A program made the position numbers and the translations under genes. Below are positions 12,065 to 54,854 of a DNA stretch of 64,000 bases, piece by piece; the first letter of the stretch is position 1, and each line of letters begins with the position of its first letter. The DNA is from Dinochytrium kinnereticum (Eukaryota; Chytridiomycota; Chytridiomycetes; Chytridiales; Chytridiaceae): NCBI GenBank assembly GCA_027604005.1, contig JADGJT010000070.1:1-64000 (forward strand). Direction: 5' to 3'. Under the pieces are notes generated by a model. The model was given only the letters and a program-made list of their open reading frames with translations. It was not told where the DNA came from and searched no databases.

Positions 12065-13401
12065 TCAGGCGGTGCCCTTCGCCGCCTTCGCCCCTCCGTC
12101 AGTCTTGGGCGGCGCCCGATCACCGCCATCCTTCTTCTTCTTCTCCTTCTTCAAAGTCTTCGGATCCACTGGAGGGGGGTAAGCCAACTTTGTCAACTCC
12201 ACCAAAGCCGAATCCAAGAACTTCTGTCTGATAGGCTCTAGTAACTCATTGATGGCATCCGTAGCACCCCCCTTCAAATCCAGCGGATGCAATTTCTTCT
12301 CCTTAAAGGATTCAAACACCTCGTCAAAGGAATTGAAGACCAAGTTTCCGCCAAACTTTTCAGGTCGCTTGATGGTGAAGGTGATAGGACCGCCGTCGGA
12401 TTTGAGAGAAAGGATGGGGAAGATGACGTACTTAAGGAACGAAAGGATGGGGTTATCGTCCACGTTGCCTTCCTCACAGAAAGCCTTTTTGAGTTTCTTT
12501 TCAACGGACTTGGCGTCGTCCAGAAGATCAATCTTTGAGTCAGGTTCCGATGAACTCATCTTGGATCCACTCAATCCACCCAGCATGACGTTCATCAAAT
12601 GCGCTCGCTTCTTGTACCCAAGAGTGGGCATGTGCTTCTCCGCGAAAGTGAAGATCTTTCTCTGATCGACTCCACCAAACTGCGCATCAACCCCCAAGTA
12701 CTCTTCATCAAGCGCTTGAAGTAACGGGTAAACCAGTCCTGACATAAGCGGTGATTCAACTTGCTTCACAACCTCCGCCCCAGCTTTCTTGGCGTCATGT
12801 TCAGAGGTGACAGCAAGCATGCGGTAAACATCGAGGGTGTATTCTCGGCTAAGTTGATAGTCCGTTCCAACAACGAACTTAAGTTTAGAGATTGGAACTC
12901 CAATGGATTCTAGCATGGCTTTGATCGCGGCTTCATAGTACTTGGTTCGGTGGTTTAGAAGCTCCCAGGGTGCTTTCATGTTATCCAGGTAGGCATGCAG
13001 ATCGGCAAACAAGATCGTGACCTAAATCAAAGAAACGCAGCCAGTTAAGAAATATACAGTCGGCCCAGCATGACATGGGGAGGAGAAATGTGCTATGATG
13101 ACCCAACCTCGCATCCGGCTTTAAGGAAATCAGCAATCTTGGTCATGGGAACAAAGTATCCAATGTGAGGTTTCCCAGTCGTTGCAGTACCCCAGTAAAC
13201 CTTCAGATCTCTCTCGGCAAGAACTTTCTTGATCTCCTCCTCTCCAAGGTATTCCTGAAGATTACGAGTGATCAGCGCGAACCTATCGTACACCCACAAA
13301 CAACAGAATAATCAGATTTGAACCATCACGTAATAAAATACGAATAATGGAATTACAAGTTGAAGGACTTCGTTTCTGTACCTTTCTTCAACGGATGTCA
13401 T
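12065..13401 (-). CDS. TYS1: Cytosolic tyrosyl-tRNA synthetase
   Basis: Class I enzyme that charges tRNA-Tyr. Exons are 13382-13401, 13108-13282 and 12065-13021, giving 383 residues, normal for the eukaryotic cytosolic enzyme without extra C-terminal EMAP domain. It begins [20 protein letters not shown]. The HIGH-type motif appears as KPHIGYF near residue 45 and the KMSKS-type loop as [17 protein letters not shown]. The Tyr-binding region includes [15 protein letters not shown] and the [11 protein letters not shown] segment. The C-terminal tail is a Lys/Asp/Gly/Ala-rich extension ([11 protein letters not shown]) like that of other fungal enzymes, which aids tRNA binding. The first exon is only 20 nt. 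Confidence 0.97.
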
Positions 13402-16200: not shown

Positions 16201-17697
16201 ATGGGGGGAAATCCCTTCATGGACATCTGGAGGCAGCTCAACAGGCAGCCGGAGGAGGTGCTGCAGCAGAAGCTGGATGCTAATCCATACCATCCATTCC
16301 AAGTCATCCAGTCTCAGGGTGCTTATTCCGTTAGCCCCCATCGCCCGCCCGCCCCTAATGTCTCATCCTCTCAACTTCTCATCCAACTACATCAGCTCTG
16401 CAGTTCTCTGTGAGATACACTGCTCTCTTCGTCTCAATAGCAAGCTTTGCAGTGTCCTCAGGCATGATCATCTTCTGGACGGCAAAGGGCCTTCTCGACA
16501 ATGTCTGTCCATTCTTTCTCTTATTCCATGAAAAAGGCTTCGATTCCATCTAAACTGTTTTCTCCTACTTTATTATAATTATTTGAAGGCATTCTTCATA
16601 TTACCCTTCCTTGGAATGGTCGTCTCTGTCGTGGGAATCTGGAACTACAAAGACACAAGATACTACACCCTCCTGCCCAGTCAAAAAGAGTATATGTTCG
16701 CACATAACAAAAAGGTGCATGTGCGTGGAGGTATTTTTTCATTTCCCTGCTTTTTTCTTTCACAGTCATCGTTGGAGCCTCCATGTAATTTCTTTCAATT
16801 CACATAGAGTTTTACAACATCTACATTCGCTTACGGCGAGAAGTCCGATCAGGTAATCAAAATAACTATTGCGAAGAGAATCTTCTTGATACCACTTTCA
16901 TGGCGAGAGTAGCAGTATTTTTGTTGCGAATGAAACCTTTTTGGATTTGTTTACAGAGTGTGATCACTTTAATTAATTAGTCATGCCGCTAAAAGGCGGC
17001 GGTATCATCCATTCCTCTTATCAGATGTTCATCACTTATCATTTCTTATCATCCATTCCTCTTATGAGATGAGATATTCATCACTTATATTTCTTCAAAA
17101 GGGCAATTAAAGTACTATCATCTAGTGTTGAACGGCTACCAAATAGACAGTCGACGACTTTCCGGGACATCAAAAAACGTCGAGGTGAGAAAATATGCAC
17201 AACTCAACATGACAACTCGACTTTATGTAGAAACTACGAAAGCTGGGGCAAACAATGGCAGCAAATTTGAATTTAAAGTGAGCAAAAACAATTCATCAAA
17301 AAAAAGGGACTTTTAAACCTTTAAAAAATAGCTACTTTGACGAGGCCAACACTTCACAGCATCATGTTATTCGTCATTTCAGGTCTGATTTTTATTTTTA
17401 TGAAACAGGTTGACACTGGAAGTATTGACGGTGATATCCTTCTATTTCTTTTTGGCTTTGCTCTGTGAAGGAGCGACAAGCAGGTCTTTTCATTCCGAAA
17501 AGGAAGTGTCGCGGCCAACAAGCAAGTCTCTTGACCACTATCCTGAGCTTGAAACAGTTATTCTCTGTTGTCATCGTTCATTAAAGTATATAACAAGAAG
17601 AAAAGTACCTACTTCAAAGAATTTATTCATCCAAACCATCACAAGCATTTGCGTTATCATCCGCAAAGGGTTTTTACAGAATAAAAATACCACATAA
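16201..17697 (+). CDS. TMEM249: TMEM249-like membrane protein (CatSper auxiliary subunit family)
   Basis: Exons 16201-16318, 16396-16502, 16589-16730, 16808-16852, 17102-17184, 17231-17277, 17332-17382 and a last exon from 17409; phases agree at every join. Two membrane helices occur at about residues 46-70 (TALFVSIASFAVSSGMIIFW) and 77-92 (FFILPFLGMVVSVVGIW). A compact domain follows with VHVRGEFYNIYIRLRREV, KYYHLVLNGYQID, KLRKLGQTMAANLNLNYFD and HHVIRHF. Two short spans plus NIYIRL / YLVLNGY / LR.LG..LA..L.LNYFD is the pattern I associate with TMEM249, in mammals a subunit of the sperm CatSper calcium channel. The end is uncertain: frame stays open to 17697, but a GT-AG intron at 17422-17470 would end the protein at 17584 (about 239 residues, nearer the animal length). 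Expected in the zoospore flagellum. Confidence 0.8.
17004..17095 (+). repeat. Tandem duplication inside TMEM249 intron
   Basis: ATCATCCATTCCTCTTAT starts copies at 17004 and 17048. Each copy runs about 44-48 bp and ends CATCACTTAT(C)ATTTCTT; the second differs by a few changes and a small insertion (GAGAT). The pair lies in the 249-nt intron between exons 4 and 5, which is longer than its neighbours. Confidence 0.85.
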
Positions 17698-17924: not shown

Positions 17925-20900
17925 CTACGAATTCACATGTCCCAGCCTCCCCCCACTCCCCGAAAATACCTCATACTTCTGAATCCTCCCCCAATCACTC
18001 CTAGTCATCAAAAAAGGCTGAAGAAGTTGCACCTCGATTCTTCCCAAACAACCTTCTGACAAAACCGTATGAAGGTTTTCGGGTTTAACAATAAATAAGT
18101 TACCAATCTCACGTAGCATTTCAAATCGTTCCGTAATGGGTGGTTGCTTGAAGAATGACATTGTTTCGTAGTACTTGGCAAGATCTCTGTTGACGTTGAA
18201 GAGATATTTTCTGTTAGTATGGAAAGGAAAGGGTAGTAGGCAAAGGCGGTTTTTTTTTTATATACTTTGTGAGAGTCACGCCGCCACTGTATGAGAAGGT
18301 GAACTTTTTGATGTGCTCGAGAAGCATTCTATGCCCGACATTAATAATGCAACATGAATGAAGAAAGTATACCCATGGAATGCGAATCCAATGTCGCAGA
18401 GAAACACTTCAAGGTTTTCTGAATCGAGAGACTGTTGAGCGGTCGCGCATATTCTCCGCATGAATTCACAGCACTGCTGGCAAGGCTGTAAAGAAACCGA
18501 CAATTTTAGTGGTTGCTGCACATCGCCGAGAAAGAGAAAAATAACGAGAACAAGAAGAAGGGCTCGAGAAACCTGGGTTGCGACCACGTTGCTTTCAAAA
18601 GTCTCATCTTTTGGCTTAAATTCTCCTTTTTTCTGCTTTGAAAGTAGTGTGGCAGCCCATGCCAGGATGGCTTAGGATGTTGTGAGTTTTTTGAAAGATG
18701 TCGAAGACTTGTTACCATCAATCTGTTTCTGAAGTAATTGGTTCAAAATATCTTCAATGGAAGACATGAATTCGTTTTTGATGATGATTGCCTCGCGATG
18801 TGCACTTGGAGATGAAGAGACGGCTGGGATCTTGTTTTTTTTTTGAGGAAATGATAAGAAAGAAAACACTGGAAGAAAAGCACTTACGACATAGGTTTGA
18901 AAGTGGAGTTGAATGAGTTGCAGTGTTTTACTTGTGACGGATACAAAGCGTAACGCGTTATCAACCTCCGGTTCAGATTTGGTATCCACTACCATGTTTT
19001 CCTCTGCAGCGCTGTAAAAAAAAAAACGAACAAAATTGGAGGCAAGAAAATAAATAAATAAGTAACAGAAAACAAACCCACGAGAAATAACTAATTATAA
19101 CACTCACATCTCGACCGCAGCCAGAATATATTCTAACCCAGCAACATCCACAAAAACCTTAAACAGCGCCCCAGCATTTTTCGCATGAACACCCTGCTTG
19201 CTCAGCTCCCTACATCTTTTTGCGCTCTCAAGGTGCATTTTAATCAACTCCAAAATGATTTTCAATGAGAGTTGAGAGGGATCATCTTCAGGTTTCGGAA
19301 ACGTTGGGGAAGTCGGGGATTTTGATCCGTCGAATCCAACGATGGTGAGGAGGTTTCCGACTGCTGGTAGGGGTGGCTGCTGTTTGGATTTGTTTTTCAG
19401 TTTTTTCCTGTTGATCTATTATTATTATTATTATTTTTTGCCCCCCATATTAGCTGAAGACTAAAAAAATAAATGGAGACGGGGTCAACTCACTACATGG
19501 TTTATGAAGGGAGCTATAACGCTTTCGAGCCGTTGCAACAAACAAGTGTTTTCAATGTTAATGTATCGGTCTCCGTCGGTGTAAGGAACGAAGAGGTCGT
19601 CAAAGTATCGGTCCAACGTCGCTGAGAGGGTATATTCGGGTTCTGCGCCGGCAAGTAAAGTCTCCCCTTGCCGTTTGAGATCGTTTGTGAGAGATAGCGT
19701 TGAAGAGTGAATAGAGGCTAAAGTGCGAAGGTAAAGTAGAGGGGAAACTTCTCCGGCCTTTGTTAGAAGAATTTCTAGAAAGTTTTGAATCTGTCAGGAA
19801 ATTCTGGTTTAGATCCGAGGGTATGCACTGTTTGTTTCTATCTAAAAATATGAGGTTTGTTTACCAGTTGAGCAAAGATTCGCTGAATGAATGTTTTCAA
19901 GACTGCGATGCTGTTTGGAAACACGACTGATATGGTAGACCATTCTGCAGGGAAAGAGGTTCGAATGTCGTCAAACAGCTTCCTCAATCCGATCATATCA
20001 ATATCGTCACTTTGATTGGAAGGAGGGTAAATCTTTCGTTTAAGGAAAACTCTGGAAGAACCTGTTATCAAATTCATCTTCGGAGATTATGGCTCGGTTG
20101 AGGAAGAATTCGTTTTGGTTGACGTAGGCTTGGACGCAAGAGTTTCCACCGTTCAGTTCGAATAGAAACTTTGCGCAAAACTACACCCTTGTGAGCGAAT
20201 ATCATAGTATTGTTTGCACAAACATTCATATCTGTCTTGTCGTTTTCTCTGTAAGCTGCATCAAATCTTGATAACATCTCTTGTTCCAGCTCCTCACAGT
20301 ATTTTTCGATATTTATACGGGCCTTCACATATTGTTAAATGTAAGTCACTCACGACAAGCAAACCGTTTCAGTTCCGGGTGCATCAAGCTCTTTGGCCAA
20401 TGCTGCCAACCGTCTTGCGATAACCGCAGACTTTTGATCCATCCCTTAGTCACCATCGATTCTATAACGTAATGTGTTTACCTTAAGCTCAGAATCATTT
20501 CCGGACTTTCGATACTCTTCAAGCCTGAAATGCCCTTCATCCTTGTTGAAGTCCAAAAAATATTGAATCAAATCCCTCGCTTCAACTGCCCGCGTTCTCT
20601 GCTTATCGATAGTTTCCAGCTGCTCCCCTGAACAAAAAGTGAGCGTCATCAAGGGCCCCCCAAGGTTACCTATCCGTATGGCCGTCTTCCCAACCATCCC
20701 TAGATGAGACTCAAGCGCTTGAAATGCCGATTTAACATCCTGAAGAACCACCTTAGTCGAACGCGCAAACACCTTGACAAACCTCAATAGCTGCCTGAAG
20801 CTCCGCCAACTTTCGTTTCCTAGCAACCTCTGACGCCTTTGCGGCATCATCCAGATCATCAATCTTATTCTGAACCTTCCGCCTTAAACGCAGCAGCTCA

Positions 20901-22706: not shown

Positions 22707-25700
22707 ATGGCTGACCGCGTTCGTCCCTACCAAGGCGTCAGCGACGCTCTGGCGCAAGCGCAGTTTGCCGAGCGAAAGTGGGTGTGGGTGGCGGACAAGG
22801 AAGAAGGATTCACCGCCGGTTGGATCACCAAGGAGGATGGCGACCAGGTCACCGTCGAGTTCTCCAACAACACGGTGAGCCAGTCCCCTTGTCCCTCACG
22901 CCTTCTAACCATCCAAGCAGAAGAAATCACTGCACATAAACGACACCGAGAAGATGAACCCGCCGAAGTTTGATAAGGCTGAGGACATGGCTGATCTCAC
23001 CTACCTGAACGAGGCCTCCGTCATTCACAACCTTAGACTCCGATATCTATCGAACCTGATATATGTTTGTGGCTGGTGACAACCCATCAACCTTTAACCA
23101 CTCCTTCCCCCTACCACCCCAACCACCTTTAGACCTACTCCGGCCTCTTCTTGGTCACCGTAAACCCGTACAAGCGACTGCCCATCTACACAGATGAGGT
23201 TGTAAAGGCTTACAGGGGCAAGAAGCGGAATGAGACTGCTCCCGTAAGGATTGGGCCCTGGTGTCTCCCAGCCATCTAACCTTCTCCTCCAGCACATTTT
23301 TGCTATCGCAGATGCCGCATACCATGACATGGTACAGGACAAGGAGAACCAGTCTATCCTTATCACGTAACACCGTTTTGCTCATGGAGATTCACGCTAA
23401 AATGTTTAAATAGAGGCGAGTCTGGCGCCGGAAAGACCGAAAACACTAAAAAGGTCATTCAATACCTGGCCTCTGTTGCTACTTCAAGCGAAAAGGGCAA
23501 GCTTGGAACACTGGAGCAACAAATTCTTCAGGCAAACCCCATTCTTGAGTCATTCGGAAACGCTCAGACCATTCGTAACAATAACTCTTCTCGTTTCGTA
23601 CGTTTCTCCCGTCATTTTTTTATGGTGTAATTTATGTTTTTGCTCCTGTTTTTAGGGGAAATTCATTCGCCTCGAGTTTAACCCTTCTGGCCAAATCTGT
23701 GGTGCCAATATTGAGCGATACCTGTTGGAAAAGTCAAGAGTCACCCACCAAACTGCTAAGGAAAGAACCTATCACATCTTTTACCAGCTTTTAAAGGGAG
23801 CGTCGCCTGAAATGAGAGGTATTCCTGTTTAAACCTGAAGATAGTTTAATTTTCAAAGCCAAGCTCCTCCTTGACGGTGGACTCAACGATTACAACTTCA
23901 TCAAGAACTCGAGAAAGGAAATCGAGGGTGTTGATGACGCCGCTGACTTCCGGCTCCTCCAGGTATTTCCACGGGATTAATCATTATTGTCAAAGAAATA
24001 ACAGTATCTCTGAAAAGGAATCATTTGGCATTATGAAACTCTCTAGCGACGATCAAATGGAGCTCTTCAAAATTATTGCCGCCGTTTTACATCTCGGAAA
24101 TATCCAGGTCTCCGGTGACCGTGACGACCAAGCCCATCTCACAGAAGTTGGCCAATCGGTCTGCGAAAAAGTTTGCCACGTTCTTGGCATCCCCGTTGCA
24201 GAGTTTGCAAAGAGTTTGTTGAAACCAAAGATAAAGGCTGGACGAGACTGGGTGACGCAGTCGCGTAACCCTGAGCAAGTTCAGTACTCGGTTGAGGCTT
24301 TGGCTAGAACTTTGTATGAGAGGATGTTTGGGAGACTGGTGGATAGAATTAATGAGACACTCTATGTTCCGAGCTCGAAGTCGATGTTTATCGGAGTGCT
24401 TGATATCGCTGGTTTCGAAATCTTTGAGGTGAGAGCCTTCAAATATATAGTTGTTGGGTTCTGGAAATATTAACTCAATCTACTATTCAGAAAAATAGCT
24501 TTGAACAGCTCTGTATCAACTATACCAATGAAAAACTTCAGCAATTCTTCAACCATCACATGTTTATCATTGAGCAAGAAGAGTACAGAAAGGAAGGTAT
24601 CGAGTGGAAATTTATCGACTTTGGTCTTGACCTTCAACCTACCATCGATCTTATTGAAAAGACATCGGTAAGCACAAAAACTTTGATTGCAAACTAAAAG
24701 CCTCCTATAGCCAATCGGTATCCTTTCCTGCCTTGACGAAGAATGTGTTATGCCGAAAGCATCAGACAAAACCTTCATTGAAAAGCTCAACGGCCTCTGG
24801 AAGGGGAAGTCCAGCAAGTATGAGGTTCCGCGCTTCAACACTGGTTTCATGATCGAGCATTACGCCGGCAAAGTTGAATATGACACTCTAGGATGGCTTG
24901 ATAAGAACAAAGACCCTCTGAACGAGAACATTACTCGTCTCCTGGCTTACTCTACCGAGAAAGTTGTCGCCAACCTCTTTGCTGACTATGCTGGAGAGCA
25001 GGAAGAGGCTGGCGGAAAAGGAAGGGGGATTACCAAGAAGGGTGCTTTCCGAACCGTCGCTCAACGTCACAAGGAGCAACTTAACTCGCTCATGTCTCAG
25101 TTGTATTCAACTGAGCCTCACTTTGTTCGTTGCATTATTCCGAATGAGGAAAAGAGGCCGGGGAAGTTCCAGGTGAACCAGGTTCTTGAACAGCTTCGAT
25201 GCAATGGTGTACTTGAGGGAATTAGGATCTGCAGGGCTGGGTTCCCCAATAGACTCACCTTTATGGACTTCCGTCAGCGCTATGAGGTTTTGGCTCCTGG
25301 CGTTATTCCTAAGGGTTTCATGGATGGACGTAGTGGCGCGCAGCTTTTATTAGAGAGTCTCGCTCTTGATAAAAATCAATACCGTGTTGGAACAAGCAAA
25401 GTGTTTTTCCGCTCTGGAGTGGTAAGTCTGCCAACTATTTGTTGTCCCAGCCATTATGCAATTACATATCATAGGTCTAATAGTTTTTCTGTAGCTGGCC
25501 CAATTGGAAGAGCTCCGAGACGTCAAATTGGCTCAAATTGTAATCAAGATCCAGGCCATTGCTCGCGGCTACCTTGCTCGCAAGCACTACAAAAAACGTC
25601 TTGACCAATTCCGCGCCATACGCATCATCCAAAAGAACGCCCGAATTTACGTCACCCTTCGAGAATGGAGCTGGTGGAAGCTCTACACCAAGGTCAAGCC

Positions 25701-28700
25701 TCTTCTGAACGTCACTCGCACAGATGAGGAGCTCCGTAAGCATGAGGAACTTGCTAGGGAGTGGGAGGAAAAGGCTAAGAAGGAAACGGAAGAGAGGGCT
25801 AAGCTCGAGTCTTTAAGGTCCGCACTTGAGGTTGAGAAGAAGAGGATTGAGGATCTGCTTATCCAGGAGAAGAATGCTGCGGCTTATCAGGCTGAATTGC
25901 TTAGTAGAACTCAGAAGCGAGAGGTAGACCTTAGTGAGCAATTGGGGGCTCTTTCAAGTGAGCTTGAGGCGAAGGAGGTCGAATACGATAATATCATGAA
26001 GACCAAAAAACGCCTTGAGGCCGACCTTAAAAGCGTTCAAGAGTCCTTCTCACTCGAGAAAGCCAACAGTGAAAAAATTGAGAAAGAAAAGTTGGCTCGT
26101 GAGCAGAAGATTCGCGAGCTCGAGGACGACCTTCGTAGAGAAACAGAAAGTTATCAACGTATCGACCATGAGAAAAAGAACCTAGAGAACCAGCTTCAAG
26201 ATATGCAACGAAACTTCGACTCGGCTAGTGACCAAGTAACAGACGTGCTCCGCACCCAAGCCAAGCTGAAGGCGACCATCACTGAGCTGGAGCAAAAGCT
26301 CGAGAATGAGACGATCGAGAATAAACGCATCGACGGTCAGCGACAGGCGTTTGAGAACGAGTGCGGCAAGCTCAACGCTTCGCTTTCAGAACTCGCGAAA
26401 GCTCGTGGGGAGCTTGAAGTAGCTCTTAAGAGGAAGGAGAGCGAATTGGCTTCCGTAAATGATAGGCTGAAGCAAGAGACCGCTGAGAAGGAGGGAATTG
26501 AGAAGCAACGTAGGGAAGGACAGTTGCAACTTAACGCCACCAAGGGGGACCTTGAGAATGAGAGGATTGAAAAGGAGCGGCTTCAGAAGGCAAAGAAGAA
26601 GCTAGAAGAGGAGCTTGAAGCTATTTCACGGTTGGCTGAAGAAAAGACTTCGGAGGAAAGCAAGCAGGGAGAGCTTCGTAGAATGAGAGAGGCAGAGTTA
26701 AATGACCTTAAGGCCCAGCTGGCCACCGCTTTAAGCGATGCTGAAATTCAAAGAAAGTCACTTGGCTTGGCGATCGATAAAGTCAAGGTTGAGCTCGATA
26801 CTGTCCGCGGGGAACTCATCAGTAGCACTAAAGCCAAAGCAAATGTTGAGCGCCAGGTCGAAGACCTTAAGAGTGAGATTGAAAGAATCGAGGAAGCTCG
26901 CAACCGCTCCGAGAAAGCGAAAAAGCAGGCTGAAGTCGACCTTTCTAGCTCACGCTCACGAGTTGAAGAACTTGAGACCACTCTAGCTGAACTTAAGATT
27001 GTAAAGGAGGCTTTGGAGGTTAAAGTCACTTCTCTCGGATCAAAGCTGGAGGAGAGTGAGGCGAATGCTTCTCGATTTGAACGTGAGAAGCAGGCGCTTG
27101 CTCGACAAGTAGACACCCTTCGAGATGAAGTTGAGGAGGAGGTTAAGAAGTCTTCCAACCTCGAATCTCAGCGAAAGAAGCTTATGACTGAGATCAGTGA
27201 CCTGCAGGCTCGCATTGATGAAGACGAGAACCAGAGAGCTGACCTTGGGAAACGACTGACACTGAAGACTCAGGAACTTGAGTCTCTTAAAGACAAGTAC
27301 GCCAAGGACGCCAGTGCAAAGTCCTCCGATTTCGACGAGTACAAAAAGAAGATTGAAAAGGAGGTTGCTGAGCTCCGTGAACGGTGTGACGACAATGAGA
27401 GGAACACTGTTAATTACGAGAAGACGAAAAACCGACTCGTAGCGGAGGTTGAGGACCTCAAACTCGAACTTGAGAGAGAGCACAATGCCGCCCGCAACGC
27501 CGAAAAGCTTCTCAAAAATCAGGAAGTTCAGCTTTCATCGGTCAATACTGCACTTGAATCTGAGAGGCGACAAAAGGAAACGGCGGAAAGCTCCGCCAGA
27601 CGTCTTCAGTCGAACATTGACTCGCTCACCCTTGAACTGGAGGAGAAGGCTAACCAGCTTGTCAACACTCAAAAAATCAAGGGAGACCTAGAGGCTGAGC
27701 TCAAAGCCTTAATTGGAGAGATTGGTGACAGTGGTCGAAACGTTCACGAACTTGAGAAAAGTAAGCGACGTCTTGAGCTTCGGATTGAAGAGCTTGAACG
27801 CCAAGTCACTGATGAGGAGATTGCGCGCCGAAAAGCTGAGGAAGGCAAGCTCGCCTCTGAAAATCAGTTAACAGATCTCCGCAGAAAGTTTGATATCGAA
27901 CTCTCTGCCAAGGACTCGCTTGTTGATGAGACAAGACGTATGCTGATGAAGGAGGTGAACTCTCTTGGGGAGCAGCTTGACGAGGTCACACTTTTGAAGA
28001 ACGATGCTTTGAAGCAGAAAAAGAAGTTGGAGGATGTTGTCGAGAGCCTCAGCTCCAAGGCTGAGAACACCGCAAAGGGCCAGTCGGACCTCGAGAAAGC
28101 CAAAAAGAAAGCCGAAGCCACTGTTAAGGAGCTCCAGGCCAAACTTGAAGAGGAGGAGAAGGCTCGGAAAAATGCTGAAGAATCAGCAGAACGCCATGAA
28201 AGGCGAGCCAACTCCCTTCAGTCCGATGTCGAGCGCCTTGAAGTCTCAACGGAAAATCTTGACCGCACCAGGCGGCAGCTTGAGAAGAAGGTGGATGAAT
28301 TGAGCTCCGAACTGTCTGGTGGAGATGACTCAAAGTCAAGTCTTGCGGAGGCGAAGAAACGGCTTGAAAAGGAGAAGGCGGATCTCTTGTCTCGCCTTGA
28401 GGAAGAGCAAGAGGCGAGAATGAACCTTGAGATGGCAAAGTTGTCTGGCGCAAACGAGCTTGAGCTCCGAAACAAGGCTAGAGAGGACCTTGAGATCAAG
28501 ATTGAGAAGCTTGAAGAATCTCGCAGGGCTCTCCTTGCCGCTCAGAGACTCTCCTCTCAGGAGCTTGACGATCGCGCTAAAGATATCGCAAACCTCGAGA
28601 AGCAGAGAAAGCTTCTGCAGGCTGAGATTGACGATCTCAAGGCCGGTTTAGAGGCTGAGGTTGCTGCAAAGTGCGAGGAGGCTGCCGCGAGGAGGAAGCT

Positions 28701-30204
28701 TGCAGGGGAGGTTCAAGACCTGCAAATCAAACTGGACGCGGAGGTTTCGAAGGCAAATGACGCTGTTGACAATGCCAGTATTTACCGCGTCAAGGCTGAC
28801 TCCTTGATGAATAAGTTAGAGGCCGCCGAGATTGCTAAGATCAAGGCTGAGAAGAACGAGTCTACTCTGCGGATTCAAAATAAGGAGCTTGAGGAGGCTG
28901 TTGCTGAGGCTTCTAACGAGAGGAAAAACGCTGAGGATCGTGTTAAGGGTCTTGAACAACGCGCTCTTGAGCTTCAAGAGAAACAGGAGGAAGATGGGCT
29001 TGAGATTTCTGATCTTCAAAATGTGAAGAGGAAACTTCAGGAAGATCTTCAGCAGCTTCATGAAAGAATTAAGCGCGACAACGAGGATAGGGAAAGCCTT
29101 GTCGAGCAGACAAGAAGGAAGTACCAAAAGGAGATCAAGGAACTCATCTCGGAGATACAGATTGAGAAGGGCAACGTTATGAAGTTGAAGGAGCTTAACA
29201 AGGAGCTTGAAGGCGAAACTGAAGGACTCTCCAACCGCGTCGAGGCAGAGATGCGAAATTCGGCCCACTGGAAAAAGGAAAAAGAAAAGCTCGACAGCAA
29301 GGTCGAGGACCTCACCAAAGCCTACACCGAGGCGATCGACGGCCACGAAGACCTCCAAAGCCAGATCACAAGCCTTCTCGGACAAATCCGAGACCTTAAA
29401 TCTCATCTCGAAGATTCCGAAGCCCAACGCACGCTCCTTGAAAAGTCCAAAAAGACCCTCGAATCTCGGTTGGATGAGATTGGGGAGCAGTACCAGGACG
29501 CTGATCGCGCCCGTGCTGATCTCTTTAAATCCGTTCACGCGCTTGATCAAAAGACCACCGAATTAAGGGATAGTCTTGAGGATTACCAGGACCAAGCTAG
29601 GATTGCTCGTGAGAAGCTTCGCCGGGCTGAGCAAAACGCGACCGATGCGGTGGGTGAGCTTGCCAAAGAGAAGGATCGAAGCATTGAGCTTGAGAAGAGT
29701 AAGATTGCGCTTGAGAAGCAAGTCAAGGAGTTGAACTCACGTGTTCTTGATCTTGAGGCAGTTGTCCTTCAAACCTCCAACGGGGCTTCCAAGCGCCTTG
29801 AAGCGCGTGTTGAAGAGCTTGCTCAACAGCTTGATGCAGAGGTGAAAGAGAAGGTTGAGATTCAGAAGAATGCACGGAAGACGGAAAGGATTATTCGAGA
29901 ATTGCAGTTCCAGGTTGGGGAGAAGGATAAGCAGAAGCAAAGGTTTGAGGAGGAGGTTGAAAAGATGGATCAGAAGTTAAAGAGGATGAAGATCCAGATT
30001 GAGGAGTTAGAGACTTCTGAGAGTAACTTGCAGCTGTCGAAGAGAAGAGCTGAGAGGGAGAGCAGTGAGTACAGAGAGAGGTCTTTAAGGTGAGCTTTTT
30101 ATAATTTTTTCATCTATCCTTCATCAACATGGACTAAATTTCATTTCATTAGGTTCGAGAAAGAGGTTGAGAAACTCAAGACCAGAATCGAGCGAGGAAT
30201 TTAA
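22707..30204 (+). CDS. Conventional (class II) myosin heavy chain
   Basis: Motor protein of the actomyosin system, expected in the contractile ring and cortex. ATG 22707-22709; stop TAA 30202-30204. The product is about 2,150 residues. An SH3-like N-terminus ([16 protein letters not shown]) precedes the motor, with P-loop [13 protein letters not shown], switch [16 protein letters not shown], switch [11 protein letters not shown] and an actin-binding [10 protein letters not shown]. The converter leads to one clear IQ motif ([20 protein letters not shown]) and an imperfect second, then a proline and about 1,400 residues of continuous heptad coiled coil, the mark of class II. The head is split by about eleven short introns, whereas the neck and tail sit in one exon (about 25496-30091). 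A last exon (30153-30204) adds [16 protein letters not shown]. Light-chain and filament-forming roles follow from family knowledge. A decayed second copy of the 3' end follows. Confidence 0.97.
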
Positions 30205-34967: not shown

Positions 34968-37900
34968 ATGACGACCCTCTTCCGCTCCGAGGAGATGTCG
35001 CTGGTGCAGGTGCGCTTCCCTCTCTGCTCTGCCCTGTTCTGATTGCGTGTGTGTGTGTGTGTGTGGGACTGTCGATGGCACAATGGCGTCGTTGGTGTAT
35101 TATTGTTCGTCTATCGATCCCTTCTAACCCTGACCTTCACCCACGATTCAAACAGCTGTACATTCCTTTGGAGATTGCGCAGGCGACCGTAGCCGAACTA
35201 GGGGAGCTTGGGTTGATCCAGTTCCGTGATGTAAGTTGTTCTCCCTCAAACAACCACGGTTGGAGTCTGAGATGCCACTTGTTTCCAGTTGAACGGCGAC
35301 GTCAACGCGTTCCAGCGCACCTTTGTGAATGAGATCCGACGTCTGGATGATATGGAGAGGAAGCTTCGTAAGATTTGAACCATTGGCGACCCCACTCAGC
35401 CTGACTTTGTTTCTCGTTTTAGGTTTCCTCAAATCTCAGATTGAAAAGGAGGAGATCGCAATCAAGTCGGCGTCTGGTTTGCCTCAGAGGCCTCGAAATC
35501 ATCAGGAGATTGACGAGCTTGAGGAGAAGCTTTCGCAGCATGACAACCGTCTTCAACAGATGAACACCTCACAGGAGACGTTGAATAAGCGTTACCTGGA
35601 GTTAACGGAGCTTCGACATGTTTTAACGGAGATCTCTGGCTTCTTCAGAGCTGTTAGTTTCTTTCTTGATGTCTAGTAGGACTTCAGCAAAGTGCAAGGA
35701 TTAACTGGTGTTGGTTTTGTTTTTCAGGCTGAAGCTCGAGGGGAAGACGGCTACCAGTCCAATTACAGAGAGGATGGCAGGCTTCTTGACACCCCCCAGC
35801 GTGGGGACGAAGATACTGAGGCTACGGAAGAAGGTCGATCGAGCGGCCACGTTAAACTTGGGTAAGCACCTCACTTGTCCAATTTGCCGTGACGGAAAGC
35901 CAAGTTAAACACTGGTTAATGATTTTGTAGCTTTGTTGCCGGTGTTATCCCTCGCGGCAGGCTCGGGACTTTCGAAAGGATCCTGTTCCGCGCTCTTCGT
36001 GGCAACCTCTTCATGAACAATGCGGAGATCGACGAGCTCATCCGTGATCCAACCACCGACGAGCTTCTCCAAAAGAACGTTTTTGTCATTTTTGCCCACG
36101 GTAAGGAGATCCTTACCAAGATCCGCAAAATTTGCGAGAGCATGGGGGCCACCCTTTACGCTGTTGACGAGAAGGCGGATAAGCGCCAAAAGGACCTTGA
36201 CGAAGTGCAGGCGAGGATCGCAGACCTCAAGAACATCCTCGACAACACTTCGCATCAACGCCGTGCTGAGCTTGTCAAGGCTGCTGAATTTTTGGATGCT
36301 TGGTCCATCACGCTGAGGAAGGAGAAGGCCGTTTATCATACTATGAACACCTTCAACTATGATCAGAACCGAAAGGCGTTGATTGCTGAAGGATGGTGTC
36401 CTACTGCTTCTCAAAACTCTATCCGGTACGCTTTGAGGACTGTGACGGAGAGAACTGGGTCGACTATCTCCCCCATCTTGAATGAGATGCGGACGGTGAA
36501 GACGCCACCGACTTTCCATAAGACCAACAAATTTACTGTCGGGTTTCAGGAGATTGTGGATGCTTATGGGATGGCTTCTTATCAGGAGGTTAATCCGGGT
36601 ATTTTTACCATTATCACGTTCCCGTTCCTATTTGCGGTGATGTTTGGCGACTTCGGGCATGGAATTTTGATCACTATCTTTGCGGCTTGGATGGTTGCTT
36701 ATGAGGCTAAGCTTGCTCAGAAGAAGGGTGGAGAGGTATTTTCTTTTCTCGTCTTTTTTAGTGTTGATGTCTAGGTTACGTATGTTGGCTGATTCCCGCG
36801 ATTTTATTGTTCTATCTGTTTAGATTTGGGCCATCTTCTTCTCTGGCAGATACATTATTCTGCTGATGGGTATTTTCTCTATTTTCACCGGTTTGATCTA
36901 CAACGATATTTTCTCCAAGAATATGAACTTGTTCGGATCAGCTTACAAGTTTATCTTGGATCCTAATACCAAAAAATGGGTCGGTCAGAAATCATCCAAG
37001 GTCTATCCTTTTGGCATTGATCCGGTGAGTTTTGCTGGACACGCTTGAAAAATCTCCCTTCCGCTTTTTCTTCTGCCTAGTGATGAATATTTTCCCAAAC
37101 GTGCGGAGTTGCCAAATTGCTGGATCGTTTTGGTTCAGTGGCTTCGTTGATATTTGTTTATGTCATAGTTACACTGAGGGCACCTTTATGACGGACAAGC
37201 AGCTTACCCCAAAACTCCCTTGATACCTTTTACTAAACTTGAACTGTTTGTTACCCCATGAATACACTCAGGCTTGGCACGGCACCGACAACATGCTCAT
37301 GTTCTCCAACTCCTACAAAATGAAGATGGCTATCGTTCTGGGTGTTATGCACATGGTCTTTGGAATCGTCCTGAATGTGTTCAACCACATTCACTTTAAG
37401 CGCGTTTCCCATATTTACACCGAGACTTTGCCGCAGATCATTTACATTGTTTCCATCTTTGGGTACCTTGTCATCATGATTCTTTATAAGTGGTCTGTCT
37501 ATTGGGAGAATCCTTCGACTGCTCCTGGGCTTTTGAATACGCTTATTTACATGTTTTTGGCGCCGGGCAAAGTTGACTTGCCGTTGTATCCGGGTCAGGT
37601 AAGGGTGGTTTTGGTTGTTGTTGTGTTTTGGTTTTGCTATCATTTTGCGGCGTTGCGCTTATCATTGATGTGAAAGGCTTCCCGTCTCACTCCCTACAAT
37701 TAATTTTTTTTCCTTTCTCGTTCTGCAAACCCACCACCCCTAACGATCTTAAATTTTATTTATCTAACCAGGGCCCCGTCCAAGTCATGCTCCTTCTCAT
37801 CGCCTTTGTCTGCATTCCTTGGATGCTTCTCGCAACTCCTGCCATGACGATGATTGAGAATTATTACCTCAAGGACAAGGGATACGTGAACCTTTCCTCG

Positions 37901-39464: not shown

Positions 39465-40753
39465 TTAGAGCTTTGCCTTTGAACGGCCGATGGTGGCGGT
39501 GATGAGACCTTTTGTTTGGAGAATGTTAGAGAGCGAATCAACTAATTAAAAAAAAAAAAACAAGAAGGGGAAGGAGGCACTTTACGGGAAACGAAGAGCA
39601 AAAAAAAGGGGGGAGTGAAAAGAAACACCGTAAGAAAGGACATAAAAGGCCCTCACCGGAAGGATCCGCAACCGGATAGAAAACAGTCATGTTCTTCCCC
39701 TTGTTCTGAAGTCCAAAACGATCCAAATCATACCCAAAGACATGCTTGTTTGGCAGAGCGTAATGAACCAAATTCACTTCCGGGAAGATGCTCAGAATGT
39801 GTTCACCCATACGGTACAAAGTGTTTTGAACGGACGGAGAGTTGTGGTTGGCAAAGATATCAAGGGTGACCTGCTTGCACCCCCGGAAGATGGCATCATA
39901 ATTGACCTTCCCAAACTCAGACACATCCTTCCCAGAATGCTCCAACACGGCCGAGGAAGGGATGACCTCCTCCTTTCCACAAAAGTCCCAGTAAGCCTCC
40001 ACGGTTGTGGAAAAGATGCGATCATCCATATCAGGAAGCGTCGTCAACTCGCATCGATGAAAGTTCTCAAAAGAGGATCCTGTGGTCTTGAGAACAAGGA
40101 GATCGGTCAACCCGGATTTGGCCGTCACCTTCATCTTGCCGTTACCAATCCTCTCGGCGATGACAGAGGTGACGCGCTTCTCGTCTCCGCCTCGGTAGAA
40201 TGAGTGCGGGTGCGCGGCGGTGATGTTGGGGCCTTGAGGGGTGTACAACCCAGCGCCGCGACCGTCGACAGCGGTGCCGGCAAAGTCTGAGGTGGTTGGG
40301 GTGAAGGTGGTGGTTTGGACTCGGGTCCAGTTGTGAGACTGGATGGAGACGTCAACACCGTCGACGTGGGGGTACTTTGAGAGGAAGTGGGTTGAGATGG
40401 TGTGAGCAAAGAGCTCGATCGTCTCCAGGGTTTGAGGGGTCTTCTTGGCGAGATAGTAGATGGTGTTCTTGACTGTTTCAAACAGGAAAGAAAGAAAGAA
40501 AGAAATAAAGGGTTGGGAGTGAGACTTGCTGCTAAAGTGAAGAGAGATCTTTACCCGTGTCGGTGGGGACGACCAAAGCGTTGTCGGCAACAGCGTAAGA
40601 AGGGTCAAAGGCCTTGCCCATCAGCAGGACGCGCACAGTCAGCTCAGCGACATGCTGACGCTTGAGGTGGGGAGCGTCCGGGTTGACGGGAAGATCCGAG
40701 ACCTTGACAAGGCGGACCTTGTCCTTTCCGTATCGCTGGGTGATGAGGGGCAT
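39465..40753 (-). CDS. Urate oxidase (uricase), peroxisomal
   Basis: Uricase oxidises urate to 5-hydroxyisourate in purine breakdown, inside peroxisomes. Exons 40555-40753, 39657-40472 and 39465-39508 sum to 1,059 nt, 352 residues, about 50 more than usual. It begins MPLITQRYGKDKVRLVKVSD, the normal uricase N-terminus, so this Met is preferred although the frame stays open upstream. Other family blocks are ADNALVVPTDTVKNTIYYLA, ELFAHTISTHFLSKYPHVDG, SGLTDLLVLKTTGSSFENF, SPSVQNTLYRMGEHILSIFP and YALPNKHVFGYDLDRFGLQN. The extra length is an insertion between RVQTTTFTPTTSDF and HPHSFYRGGDEKRV, containing GTAVDGRGAGLYTPQGPNIT. The protein ends SKAKL, a peroxisomal targeting signal of type 1. Confidence 0.96.
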
Positions 40754-48566: not shown

Positions 48567-49459
48567 TTCCGCACGCTGAGCCTTCCCTGCTGGATGAAAA
48601 GTAGGGTCCGGAAAGAGTGTATCAGTTAGCGTGCACAACATTGATGTAGGTGGGGTGGGGCATGAGGGGGGGTAGCAGGGTCCAGGGAATGACTGGAGGC
48701 ACGCAGGCAAAGTGCAGACCTTGGAGGAGACGGTTGCCTGTGATCGGGCTGACCGCCAGTGGCCCTGTGAGAGTGTGAGCCAGCGACCAGTTCGCGGTCC
48801 ACATGCTGCGCCACGGGGATGGTTCCAGCCATCATTCTGGGAGAAGCAGTATCTGAGGATGCGGCGAGTGCAGTCGGAGCGGTGGGGAGCGGCCGGGGCA
48901 GAGCGCAGACGGAGGGAGCAGCGCGCGGGTGTAGGGGAGAGGACAGGAGAGGGGAGGGGAGGGCGGTGGCGAGGAGAGGTGGGGGCAGCAGCAGGCAAAT
49001 AATTAATTGAAAATCGAGGTTGAAGGTCGAGTGGCCCCTCTGAGCAAGGCGAATTTTTGTTTTTTTTTCTTCTGTGCCTCTGTGAAAATTTGTGGAAATC
49101 TTCCGACTTGCCTCTCTCTCTGCGTGCCCACCACTGCCTGCCTGCCTGCCCGCCCGCCCTTTTAGCATCATTGATTGCTTTCACTTTTATCATTAACATT
49201 AATTATTATTATTTATTGCAAAAGTGCTGCTGCTGCTGCTGCTGCTGTTGCTGCTGCGTGCGTCAAAACTGGGCTTTGGCTGCTGCTGCTGCTGCTGCGG
49301 CATTGTTTGCTCTGCTTGCAAAACACGCTGACACCCCTTCGTCTGGCTGAAATACGCGTGCCGCTGCCTGAGAACACGCGTCCATCCACCCCACCCCATC
49401 TGCCTCACTCCGGCCCTGCTCATTGCTCCATCCATCACTCACTGAACACGCTGTGGCAG
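48567..49459. other. Divergent intergenic region, zinc-finger gene / NPT1
   Basis: 893 bp between divergent start codons. It is GC-rich near 48850-48990 and holds (GCT)n tracts at about 49225-49300. Open frames exist on both strands from the repeats, but no domain. Promoters and long 5' UTRs are expected here. Confidence 0.5.
49226..49300. repeat. (TGC)n microsatellite upstream of NPT1
   Basis: Two TGC/GCT runs (49226-49256 and 49278-49299) lie 160-235 bp upstream of the NPT1 start. The frame of NPT1 stays open through them, which would add an Ala/Leu-rich stretch if translation began further upstream at a non-ATG codon. Confidence 0.85.
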
Positions 49460-50683
49460 ATGACAATGGCATTGGGCAGGGCCTTCACATCTGAGGACCT
49501 TCTGGACAATGATCTTTACAAGTTCACCATGCAGCTGGCTCTGTGGAAAAGAGGGTACGCCAATACCATGGTGGGCTACCGCTTTGGCGACAGAAGTCGC
49601 CTTCTCAAGCTCAAAGATCCTTCGGCAATCACTGGCTTGTTGAAGACTTTACAGGCCTATGTTGATCTTGCATGGGACGAGGCATCACTAGCGCTGGTGC
49701 AGAGTACTCTGGCGCGTTGTCTTGGTCCAGATGATTCAGAAGAGACCCTGAAAGCTTACGTGACAAGGCTTTGCGAGCCCAGAAACGTCCAGATCTACAT
49801 TGGAGTCTCCTCTGATGGCCTGCTTGAGCTCGAGTATTCTGGGTCTTGGTTCGACACCATCCTCCTTGAAGTACCCTTTCTGTCCATTATCAGCGAATGG
49901 CACAACTCTGGGGTGAAGCTGGATGTGAACTGTCTGGTCGAGAGAACGCAGAAAAAGTGTCAGATGTATCGGAACCTGGGGGCCAACGTTATCGACTTTG
50001 GGACAAGGCGCCGATTCAGCCGGGCCGCCCATGAGGCGGTTTATCAAGTGGTATCGTCGTTTGGCTATGATACCTCCAACGTTCTCCTTGCTTCAAGGCA
50101 CGGACGGATGCCGAGAGGAACGTGTGCACATGAATGGTTCATGTTTCACGAGGCCATCACACGAGCTGCCTCTGCCGATGCAGACATACAATCCACCATC
50201 AAGGCCTCCATCCGTCACGCCATCACAGGATGGTTGGAAGTTTTCCCCACCCTCATCGCCCTGACTGACGTCTACGGCACGAGGTTGTTCGCCGAGGCTT
50301 TTTTGGTGATGGACAAATCTGCCCAGCAAAGGACACACTTTCGATGTGACTCTGGCCGAGAGGAAGATTACCTCCCCTATCTCATATCACTTCTTGGATT
50401 CGAAAATGTGAACTCTAAAACCATCATTTATTCAAACGCGCTGAACCCGGAACGCGTTCAATCCATTCAAGAGGCTTTGATGAGGGGAGAGACGTGTAGT
50501 GGGCCAAGGGTCTATGGCATTGGGACCAACTTCACCAACGATACGGGCGATGGTCGGGAGAGACTTGACATCGTGATCAAGCTGCATAAGGTCAATGGCG
50601 TCTTTTCTTTTAAAACCTCGGATGATCCGGGCAAGTTTACGGGCGACATCTCTCTAAAACTCAGAGTAAATACATTGCTGTAA
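49460..50683 (+). CDS. NPT1: Nicotinate phosphoribosyltransferase
   Basis: The enzyme turns nicotinate and PRPP into nicotinate mononucleotide in NAD salvage. A single uninterrupted frame from ATG 49460-49462 to TAA 50681-50683 gives 407 residues, the usual size of the fungal and proteobacterial (PncB) form. Features: LLDNDLYKFTMQLALWK at the N-terminus, GSWFDTILLEVPFLSIISEW, IDFGTRRRFSRAAHEAV with the GTRRR phosphoribosyl motif, the PRGTCAHEWFMFHEA block matching the PIGTMAHE motif, TDVYGTRLFAEAF and FRCDSG. The upstream frame is open but begins with no ATG and is low in complexity, so this Met is preferred. It is one of only two intronless genes here. The stop is only 23 bp before the VPS35 start codon. 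Confidence 0.95.
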   Translation: MTMALGRAFTSEDLLDNDLYKFTMQLALWKRGYANTMVGYRFGDRSRLLKLKDPSAITGLLKTLQAYVDLAWDEASLALVQSTLARCLGPDDSEETLKAYVTRLCEPRNVQIYIGVSSDGLLELEYSGSWFDTILLEVPFLSIISEWHNSGVKLDVNCLVERTQKKCQMYRNLGANVIDFGTRRRFSRAAHEAVYQVVSSFGYDTSNVLLASRHGRMPRGTCAHEWFMFHEAITRAASADADIQSTIKASIRHAITGWLEVFPTLIALTDVYGTRLFAEAFLVMDKSAQQRTHFRCDSGREEDYLPYLISLLGFENVNSKTIIYSNALNPERVQSIQEALMRGETCSGPRVYGIGTNFTNDTGDGRERLDIVIKLHKVNGVFSFKTSDDPGKFTGDISLKLRVNTLL

Positions 50684-50706: not shown

Positions 50707-53700
50707 ATGTCGACCTCCTCGATCGCCCCGTCAGGGATATCAACTCCCAATGCGGAGGACCAGTCAAAGGTGCTCGAGGAGGCGCTGAATATCGTCAAAG
50801 TGCAGGCCTTCCATATGAAGCGATGTCTGGTGAGATATTAGGCTTGAATCTCTTTGATGGGCAATCTGGGTTTCCATGGGCTTGCAATCCAATTCTAGAC
50901 TGGGTGCCATTAGGGTCGATGCGCTGGAGAGAATATGTCAGTCGATGCTGTCGAATGGATCTTGATTTTTTGGCACTTGGGAATGCGCATATTGGGTTTT
51001 GAGGAGAAACGCAGGGCATTGATGCAGACGGAAACCTGCCACTGGGACGCGAAGTCTTTTATTCGAATCCCACTTCTCACCCATATAATGCAGTGCCTAT
51101 GGCCATCAGTGCTTGCTCCTAATTCGCTCCAATTTAATCTCAGGATAATGGCAAGCTTATGGACGCCCTTAAACACTGCTCAACGATGTTGGCGGAGTTG
51201 CGAACTTCGTCCCTCACCCCCAAGAATTACTACGAACTTTGTAAGTTCTTCTTCTAATCTCACTTCAAAAGACGTGTTCCACATGCTGCATTTCCAGTAT
51301 ATTTCCCCTTCAAGATCGCTCACCCTCACTTAATAAAAAAAACTAGACATGGCCATTTTTGACGAGCTCCGCCACCTCACAACTTTCCTCCACGAAGCCC
51401 ACATGTCCAAGCGCCATCATCTCTCAGATCTCTATGAGCTCGTTCAGTACGCTGGCAACATTGTTCCAAGGCTTTACCTCATGATCACAGTCGGGTCAGT
51501 TTATATGAGAGTAGCGAGAGAACAAATTGCTGAGAGAAGGCAACGGGCTGAGGCGGCTGCTGCTGCCCCTCCTAAAGCCGGGGGTGAGGCTCCTGCGGAA
51601 GAGGAGGACGAAGAGGAGGTGCCCCCTATTCGGGAGCTTATGAAGGATATGCTGGAGATGGCTAGGGGAGTTCAACACCCAACTCGAGGGTTGTTTTTGA
51701 GATATTATCTAAGCGGGATGACTAGAGATTACTTGCCGGATGGGATAGTGGAGGGGTGAGTTGTTGTTTGCGCATTGAAGAATGGTACTCAACCTTTTTT
51801 TTTTCTTCGCCGTAAGGCCTCATGGAACCATTAACGACTCGATTCAGTTCATTCTTCAGAACTTCATTGAGATGAACAAGCTTTGGGTTAGGCTTCAGTT
51901 TCAAGGTCATAGCCGGGAGCGTGAGAAGAGGGAGAAGGAGAGGAAGGAGTTGAGGTTGCTGGTTGGGTCTAATTTAGTGCGGTTGAGCCAGTTGGATGGT
52001 CTGGATTTGGAGATCTTCCGTGGTGTAAGTTTCTTACCTTTTTTTTGTCTGTTAGACCGAAATCATTCTCTGTGATGGCTCTTGGGACAATATTTTACCT
52101 TCGTTTTGATAATGTTGGTTTTTGACATTTTTTCCTCGTTCTTCACAGTACGTTCTTCCGAAAATCCTGGAAGAAATTGTCAGCTGCAAAGATATCATTG
52201 CTCAAGAATACCTTATGGAAGTGATTATTCAGGTATAATGCATCCAAATATTCTTTCTCCCGACCCACATTTTGCAACTCTGTGATATAGGTCTTCCAAG
52301 ACGACTTCCACCTCCGCACTCTTGATTCCTTTCTTTCGGCCACCGCAAAGCTTCACCGCAACGTGAATGTTAAGCAAACTGTCATCAGCCTAATTGATCG
52401 ATTTGCTGCTTTTGCTGCGAGGGCAAGGGATGAAGCCGATGCGAAGGCTAAAGTGGCGGGTTCGTGGTATTTGAATATTTTAATTTTCTTACCTATCGTT
52501 TGTCCGGAAAAAAGCTGCGAACGGTGAGACCGGGCAGGCCATAAGCGGAATTCCCGATGATGTGCCGCTCTTTGAGGTTTTCTGGGGCCAAATCACTGAG
52601 CTGATTCAGGTGGGGATCGCAGATGGTAATAGTCGCTTTTTTTCTGACTCTTTTGTCTTTGGTTTTCAGGCTCGTCCCGAGTTTTCGATTCAGGATGTTA
52701 TTGCGCTTTTGGTGTCGCTTATGAACTTGTCACTTAACTGCTATCCTGATCGGTTGGACCATGCGGATCAGATTCTTGGCTTTGCGAAGGAGAAAGTCCT
52801 GGAGGCACTTTCGCAGAAATCGTAAGCTATCGTTTGTTTTTTTTCCTTGAAAGAAAGAAGCAACATGTATTATTCCCTCTAACTTTTTGCATTGCAGAAC
52901 CGAGCTTCATATCCCCCAAACTACATCCTCACTCCTTCAGCTCCTGCTGGCGCCTATCTCTGCCTACCGCAGTAACCCCCTCGTCCTCCTCTCATTCCCA
53001 TCAAGTTCAACCCAGCACCCCTCACCAACTGAATCCCAGCCCGCAGATGATGCAGTCGGATGGGCAGCCCAATACGCCGGGCCTCCTCAACCCAAAATCA
53101 TTGCACCAACCCCGCAAAGCCTCTTTGGAAATTACACAGACCTTCTGTTCCTCCAACCATTTGCCACTCGACGACAGGTTGGCCACGCTTTTGCCTCAGC
53201 TTGCGTCAGGGCTAGCGCTGCCGGCACTTTTGGGATCACGACCGTTGAAGAGGTGGATGCTGTTTTGGGAGAGGTGTGTGGCGTTATGATTCGGGATCAG
53301 AAGGATGGGGGGTTGTTTGGGAGCAGGAGGACGGGGGGGGAGGAGGCGTTTAGGAAGAGTGAAGAGACTCCTTTAGACTGGGAGGATGTGGTGGAGGAGC
53401 AGAATTTGGTGGCGAAGTTAGTACATTTGGTGAAGTCGAAAGAGAAGGATCCTGAGGATGAGTTTCTGGTGGGTCATTTTTTTAATTCTTGTTTTTTTAT
53501 GTGGGGGGGGGCTTTGGACCAAGTTTTATTTGCGTTCTTTTGTGCTTATTTTTGGCTCTAGCTCTTGGCGGCGACACGCAAGCACTTTGGCGAAGGTGGA
53601 GATATTCGTATCAGGTTTACTCTCCCTCCTTTAGTGATGGCGAGCATTCAACTCGCGAACAAGTATCTTGTCACAGGATCAGCGGATGTAAGATGTTTTG

Positions 53701-54854
53701 CTTTATCATAGAAGTCTCACTATTCCTCATCCCTTTCACAACAAAGGATGAGCAAACCAAAACTCGCCTAGTAAGCCTCTACAAGTTTATTCATCAAACG
53801 GTGCTCTCTCTCTCCCGTGCACAAGAGCATTTCTCCGAGGACGACTATGAAACTGTCCCAATGTTTAAGGGGGAATCTTCCGGCTCTATAATCGGGAGGG
53901 GCCTTCTCTCACCACCTGACATTGCCATTAGACTCTTCCTTATGTCCGCCAAGTCGGCTGACGAGACTGGTCACGAAGAGTTATCCTATGAATTCTTTGT
54001 TCAAGCCTTGACCCTTTACGAGGAGTCCATCTCCGAATCCAGAGCCCAGACCGCAGCCATCACCCTCATCATTGGGACGCTGTACAACACCACCATCTTT
54101 GGGTTTGAGAACTACGAGACCCTTATCACCAAGTGCACTGTTCATTGTTCGCGGCTCCTTAAGAGGGTGGATCAGTGCCGTGGGGTCACGCTTGCTTCGC
54201 ATTTGTTCTGGGCGGGAGTGGGACAGGTTGTTGAGGGCGTTACGGATGAGGAGGCTGTTAGAAAGCTAAGGGATAAGGGGAGGGTCGTTTATAGGGATGG
54301 GAAGAAGGTGCTTGAGTGTTTGCAGAAGGCTTTGAAGGTCGCGGATAGCGTTATGGATCAGAGTGTGAATGTGGAGTTGTTTGTTGAGATTTTGGAGAAG
54401 TATGTTTGGTATTTTGAGAGGAGGAATGATGCGGTGAGTTCCTTGCCTTTCTGCGTTTTTTTCCTTTCTTTTGGATTCGATCGAAAGGTATTTCTAATAC
54501 ATTATACGAATCTATAAGATCACCGTCAAGTACCTCAACTCTCTTATCGATCTCATCCAAACCAACCTAGCCAACATCGACTCTGGGTCAGCTCCCTCGT
54601 CCATGTCCTACAATTCTCAGCAAGGCAATGGCTTTGGTCGGCCCTCTCTCTTTGGTCAGTCAGATGGTCAACAAGCCACTTCTGGAGCAGGGGGAAGGCG
54701 TGTGCCAGACTCGGTCGTGAGACACTTTGGGAACCTGTTGGCGCACTTAAGATTTAAACAGGATGAGGAGGCTGGAAAGGAGCTCCCAGGATTTTCTACT
54801 GGTTTCGGGGGTAGTGTGGGGAGGTGGGGAGAGATTGATTTTGGGAGGAGATGA
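50707..54854 (+). CDS. VPS35: Retromer subunit Vps35
   Basis: Vps35 is the curved helical-solenoid core of retromer, which recycles cargo from endosomes. ATG 50707-50709 ([13 protein letters not shown]), stop TGA 54852-54854, about eleven exons, roughly 930 residues. Key blocks: [39 protein letters not shown]; the family motif [14 protein letters not shown] that contacts Vps26; [100 protein letters not shown]; later [20 protein letters not shown] and [20 protein letters not shown] charged low-complexity insertion ([14 protein letters not shown]) interrupts the N-terminal region. Intron 1 (about 50833-51143) is over 300 nt, long for this genome. Confidence 0.96.

Follow-up and report, generated by a model that had tools for sequence, protein, structure and literature searches.

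A TMEM249 (CATSPERtheta) gene in the chytrid Dinochytrium kinnereticum, with CatSper-like genes in the same genome and an isoleucine at the CatSper4 filter

TMEM249, or CATSPERtheta (PF15158; chain J of both PDB 7eeb and PDB 9ubw), is an assembly component of the mouse sperm channel CatSper. Its cytosolic domain acts with the CATSPER4 tail to stabilise CATSPER4, the protein self-associates, and in mice that lack it the channel is absent from the flagellum (PMC10055175). In a survey of 1,256 eukaryotic genomes the gene clusters with those of CatSper (PMC10055175), and a later study of the CatSper network covered 1,952 species (PMC12638846). The occurrence of CatSper in some flagellated fungi (PMC13358043) and the coevolution of TMEM249 with CatSper are already published; no report of TMEM249 in fungi was found in the open-licence literature, although the figures on distribution in PMC10055175 and PMC12638846 may show it. 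Here, we describe a TMEM249 gene in the chytrid fungus Dinochytrium kinnereticum, a member of the Chytridiales, located in the first 64,000 nucleotides of contig JADGJT010000070.1 (this whole stretch is referred to as the window), together with CatSper-like genes of the same genome, one of which, a CatSper4, carries isoleucine in place of the filter aspartate.

The gene opens with an ATG at 16201 on the plus strand and comprises eight exons in consistent phases, separated by seven introns that are all GT...AG, and encodes a product of 218 residues (Table 1). A first-pass annotation of the window had proposed an eight-exon TMEM249 gene running from 16201 to 17697; its start, exon count, phases and four motifs (FYNIYIRL, YYHLVLNGYQID, KLRKLGQTMAANLNLNYFD and HHVIRHF, all present in the product) were retained, and its end was moved to 17534. 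Exon 7 has several possible continuations, by way of different acceptors or by reading through to a stop close by, and the former end derived from an open frame at 17404-17697 that is reachable from acceptors at 17409, 17481 and 17484. We place the last exon behind the acceptor that precedes 17471, since this is the sole listed acceptor to yield the ending found in both chytrid relatives, P0010 (Chytridium lagenaria) and P0013 (Phlyctochytrium planicorne), which each end HHVIRHFRSDKQVFSFRKGSVAA (FRSDKQVFSFRKGSVAA); an exon ending at 17697 is probably in the wrong frame. The database models of these two relatives themselves skip exons.

The identity of the product as TMEM249, already proposed in the first pass, is supported by three lines of evidence. 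The Pfam TMEM249 profile matches the 218-residue product over profile positions 2-183 of 184, with E=1.3e-32 and a score of 113.5 bits (cut-off 25); the product matches mouse CatSper structures by sequence; and a close relative, P0001, has a predicted fold that matches that of mouse TMEM249. In the P0001 model a strand-rich domain comes after two helices, which suggests that the Dinochytrium protein likewise has two transmembrane helices and a globular domain of the mouse type. A database search with a 207-residue version, which bore a provisional tail, returned 16 proteins: 11 from flagellated fungi, all entered as hypothetical protein, uncharacterized protein or the like, one from Carpediemonas, one from Colp12 (which we take to be Colponema), and three without an organism label. 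This word-based search returned no animal TMEM249, so its reach is limited. The returned set includes nothing from Dinochytrium, and annotation of the gene is therefore probably lacking, although a differently modelled protein outside the length limits is possible. The eleven fungal homologues that bear names are 45-65% identical to the product, and the position of the product in a TMEM249 tree (P0016 was excluded from the tree and the alignments) is consistent with a chytrid origin.

It is very improbable that the gene model is an artefact, in which a pseudogene was taken for a gene or exons with no relation to each other were combined by eye. Such a reading could draw on the model having been built from genomic sequence alone, on two unusual donors (gtctgt after 16502 and gtctga after 17382), and on the missing Dinochytrium entry among the database matches. 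Against this, the 218 codons contain no stop or frameshift, at most exon junctions the alignment with full-length relatives has no gap, and identity to the named fungal homologues is 45-65%. A genome search with the 218-residue product gave eight matches, every one at the window locus, so that a single copy was seen. Moreover, as the models of P0010 and P0013 skip exons, poor annotation of a gene with such small exons is unsurprising.

The genome also encodes likely partners of TMEM249. The Ion_trans profile gave 13 matches on seven contigs, and five channel queries compared with PDB chains each had a single clear best mouse CatSper: CatSper1 for the genes on contigs C65 and C122, CatSper2 for that on C251, CatSper3 for the downstream copy of a pair on C158 (the only copy of the pair compared), and CatSper4 for that on C310. 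These assignments point to four distinct single-domain pore subunits, CatSper1-4. The CatSper4 assignment has a counterpart in a database protein from D. kinnereticum that bears the name CatSper4, P0017, which covers the whole C310 query at 91% identity; the 9% difference we attribute to splicing that is approximate in both sequences. Of the ectodomain subunits, CATSPERB was matched by its CATSPERB_C profile (6.6e-26) and, in an exon upstream, by CATSPERB_2nd (7.1e-8), while CATSPERG was matched by CATSPERG_C (3.3e-18), with a likely membrane helix, read by eye, in the next frame.

Some features of this gene set may be recorded in their own right. The two CatSper1-like genes, on the minus strands of C65 (66305-66319) and C122 (35430-35444), differ in their filters, TTDTW and SQDTW. 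The CatSper3-like genes form a tandem pair on the plus strand of C158 at ~24650-27430, 73% identical over 231 residues and both with CGDGW. The remaining Ion_trans genes, on C28, C158 (35233-39192, minus) and C471, do not look CatSper-like by eye, and ankyrin-like repeats seem to lie upstream of that on C471.

The filter of the Dinochytrium CatSper4 reads TQIGW (C310, 19996-20010, minus), as opposed to TQDGW in animal CatSper4, and the filter aspartate of the TxDxW motif is thus lacking from one pore subunit. Aspartate is present in the other filters of this genome, including TFDQW in the CatSper2-like gene and the CatSper1-like and CatSper3-like motifs given above. The Dinochytrium complex is therefore a variant rather than a plain member of the CatSper group. 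A second, aspartate-bearing CatSper4 was not seen in a genome search with a close CatSper4, the strong matches of which lay on C310 only. Relatives of CatSper4 were sought with an alignment, and among the best 120 of 227 rows the filter position holds aspartate in 99, isoleucine in 16, glutamate in three, proline in one and a gap in one; the glutamate rows are two from Stylophora and one from Hondaea, and the proline row is P0024 (RKPGW), a coral row with a gene model that looks broken at the filter. Five further rows found with the C310 query all have isoleucine.

A table of 77 rows was assembled from 72 of the best 120 and these five, with P0025, P0028 and P0053, which do not include the filter region, excluded from all counts. 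Isoleucine occupies the filter position in 18 of the 19 rows assigned to chytridiomycetes by source name, one of them with TPIGW, and also in rows P0021, P0023 and P0124. Rhizoclosmatium globosum has an isoleucine CatSper4 (P0112) as well as a TMEM249 (P0003), and PMC13358043 mentions life-cycle data sets. Aspartate is kept in the nineteenth chytridiomycete row, Cladochytrium replicatum, in Gonapodya, Anaeromyces, Rozella and the four rows from blastocladiomycetes, and in the named animal and protist rows except for the glutamate of Stylophora and Hondaea; Blastocladiella emersonii is one example of a species with aspartate. Across the 21 isoleucine rows, the isoleucine, glycine and tryptophan are constant (21/21) and the glutamine is kept in 20.

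In a 49-row CatSper4 tree, the 21 isoleucine rows make up one side of a single branch (99/93; 99% of 200 bootstraps), the pattern that a single origin would give, and shuffled labels required 16.1 changes on average. One change was still the fewest in a control tree of 30 rows, for which the filter residue was masked and fragments and some rows were dropped, with lower support (83/80; 84% of bootstraps). C. replicatum and P0154, both with aspartate, branch directly outside the isoleucine clade. The CatSper4 proteins of fungi other than Rozella fall together in both trees, as expected under descent, and the position of Rozella varies. The label ‘chytrid’ itself requires five changes on the 49-row tree and does not form one clade, because unlabelled metagenome rows fall among the chytrids.

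Taken with the mouse work, this gene set makes it highly probable that the window gene is the D. kinnereticum orthologue of TMEM249 and that it works, as in mouse, in CatSper assembly in the zoospore. By analogy, the cytosolic domain of this two-helix membrane protein would hold the C-terminal tail of CatSper4, four different pore subunits would assemble with CATSPERB and CATSPERG and pair up, and the assembled complex would be passed on to the membrane of the flagellum, in this fungus the zoospore flagellum. As the same parts are encoded, the same task is to be expected, and from this we infer expression in the zoospore, a flagellar location and a role in cation entry.

Several observations weigh against this reading. 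The structural matches show low identity to mouse TMEM249 (16-22%), and the exon translations that make up the five channel queries were put together manually. A CatSper chain comes first in just one of the five PDB lists; in the other four the top places go to four-domain Cav or Nav chains, at least in part an effect of summing scores over several domains. In a six-frame genome search the CATSPERG propeller profile had no match. Likewise, no match was obtained with five profiles for CATSPERD/E (CATSPERD propeller, CATSPERD-E C-terminal domain, and CATSPERE NTD1, propeller and NTD2), a result that says little on absence, since introns hide such genes and the TMEM249 profile missed its own gene in the same way. 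TMEM249 is known in 11 of the 26 named fungi with CatSper4 in the 77-row table, with no match in the other 15, the search being too insensitive to indicate absence. Finally, a fungal channel with isoleucine in CatSper4 may perhaps not be Ca2+-selective as in animals.

The first-pass annotation had left two options, namely a CatSper-like channel in the zoospore or an older role for TMEM249 without one, and had suggested looking for partner genes; those now found, CatSper1-4-like, CATSPERB and CATSPERG, favour the former. An older, CatSper-independent role, for instance as a general assembly factor for membrane proteins, could explain the presence of TMEM249 in fungi, and yet it is improbable given the pore and ectodomain genes in the same genome. 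In addition, CatSper4 occurs in 11 of the 13 labelled TMEM249 sources when judged from the best 120 of 227 rows, where a diverged Carpediemonas CatSper4 could escape the word-based search, and the published coevolution of the two (PMC10055175) points the same way.

What the isoleucine does to the channel is a separate question. The key CatSper aspartate was described as absolutely conserved among the species compared by Cai and Clapham in 2008 (PMC2572835), and Shimomura et al. gave the filters of CatSper3 and CatSper4 as TVDGWTD and TQDGWVD in 2020 (PMC7041947). According to a 2023 review, the filter acid forms the high-field-strength site, and Ca2+ selectivity in one-domain channels is tied to the residue after the acid, which is glycine in CatSper2-4 (PMC10120453). 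The change from aspartate to isoleucine contradicts the invariance of the filter acid, and no report of it was found in the open-licence literature. To judge from the filters, the assembled chytrid ring should contain three aspartates and one isoleucine, an arrangement that may alter selectivity; as the glycine that follows is kept in the isoleucine rows, Ca2+ selectivity could survive.

We give even weight to the proposal that a re-tuned CatSper drives the chytrid zoospore flagellum. On this proposal, the filter aspartate became isoleucine once in a chytrid ancestor and was kept, the ring lets monovalent ions through or has a looser hold on Ca2+ than that of animal sperm, and TMEM249 still assembles the complex through CatSper4. 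That the isoleucine instead marks a relaxed subunit in a decaying channel is a less probable account, unlikely in our view. The loss of the acid from one of the four subunit types and the cysteine that replaces the filter threonine in CatSper3 (CGDGW) would fit decay; the constancy of the residues around and including the isoleucine across its clade, the aspartates kept in the other subunit types of this genome, and the retention of TMEM249, CATSPERB and CATSPERG argue against it. The change in chytrid CatSper4 offers a natural experiment on the number of filter acids that a Ca2+ channel needs.

The surroundings of the TMEM249 gene are those of ordinary cell genes. A Pfam scan of ten window stretches found domains of this kind in eight and no domain in two, and no CatSper gene among the ten (Table 1).

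Table 1. Exons of the TMEM249 gene and neighbouring genes in the window
Feature	Position in window	Strand	Evidence
TMEM249 exon 1, start codon 16201-16203, N terminus with NPYHPF	16201..16318	+	genome match alone, E=1.3e-20
TMEM249 exon 2, first predicted transmembrane helix	16396..16502	+	E=1.0e-16 alone; helix at corresponding place in P0001 model
TMEM249 exon 3, second predicted transmembrane helix, then the opening strands of the next domain	16589..16730	+	E=1.7e-26
TMEM249 exon 4, FYNIYIRL core	16808..16852	+	E=0.0026 alone, weak
TMEM249 exon 5, YYHLVLNGYQID core	17102..17184	+	E=2.4e-12
TMEM249 exon 6, KLRKLGQTMAANLNLN helix	17231..17277	+	E=0.31 alone, weak
TMEM249 exon 7, YFDEANTSQHHVIRHF	17332..17382	+	E=4.7e-6
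TMEM249 exon 8, C terminus RSDKQVFSFRKGSVAANKQVS, coding to 17531, stop codon 17532-17534	17471..17534	+	E=2.1e-4; P0010/P0013 C termini agree
Class I W/Y tRNA synthetase	12068-13021		Pfam
Exocyst Sec10	18276-18671		Pfam
Myosin head, then long myosin tail	24711-30090		Pfam
V-ATPase 116-kDa subunit	35923-36771		Pfam
Uricase	39541-40620		Pfam
Nicotinate phosphoribosyltransferase	49175-50680		Pfam
Vps35	53486-54514		Pfam

By these results, a fungus in which the swimming cell is a spore and not a sperm has TMEM249 together with subunits of the pore and the ectodomain, and a role for CatSper outside sperm thus becomes testable in culturable chytrids. Of the known systems, the CatSper of flagellated fungi (PMC13358043) is alike in that subunits are present in some of these species; TMEM249 has 0 occurrences in the main text of that paper, and the pore residue is not discussed in its four passages on CatSper. 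Mouse TMEM249 shares with the Dinochytrium protein the family profile, a C-terminal block of the NYFD...HHVIRH type, a predicted pair of helices with a strand-rich domain behind them (in the relative's model) and a genome that has partner genes. The Dinochytrium protein differs in its low identity, in a C terminus, FRSDKQVFSFR, common to chytrid relatives, in the seven short introns of its gene, and in its putative role in a zoospore. The animal sperm complex is likewise matched by genes for CatSper1, 2, 3 and 4 and by domains of CATSPERB and CATSPERG, whereas in Dinochytrium the CatSper1-like gene occurs twice and the CatSper3-like gene as a tandem pair, with CGDGW in CatSper3 in place of TVDGW and TQIGW in CatSper4 in place of TQDGW (animal motifs from PMC7041947).
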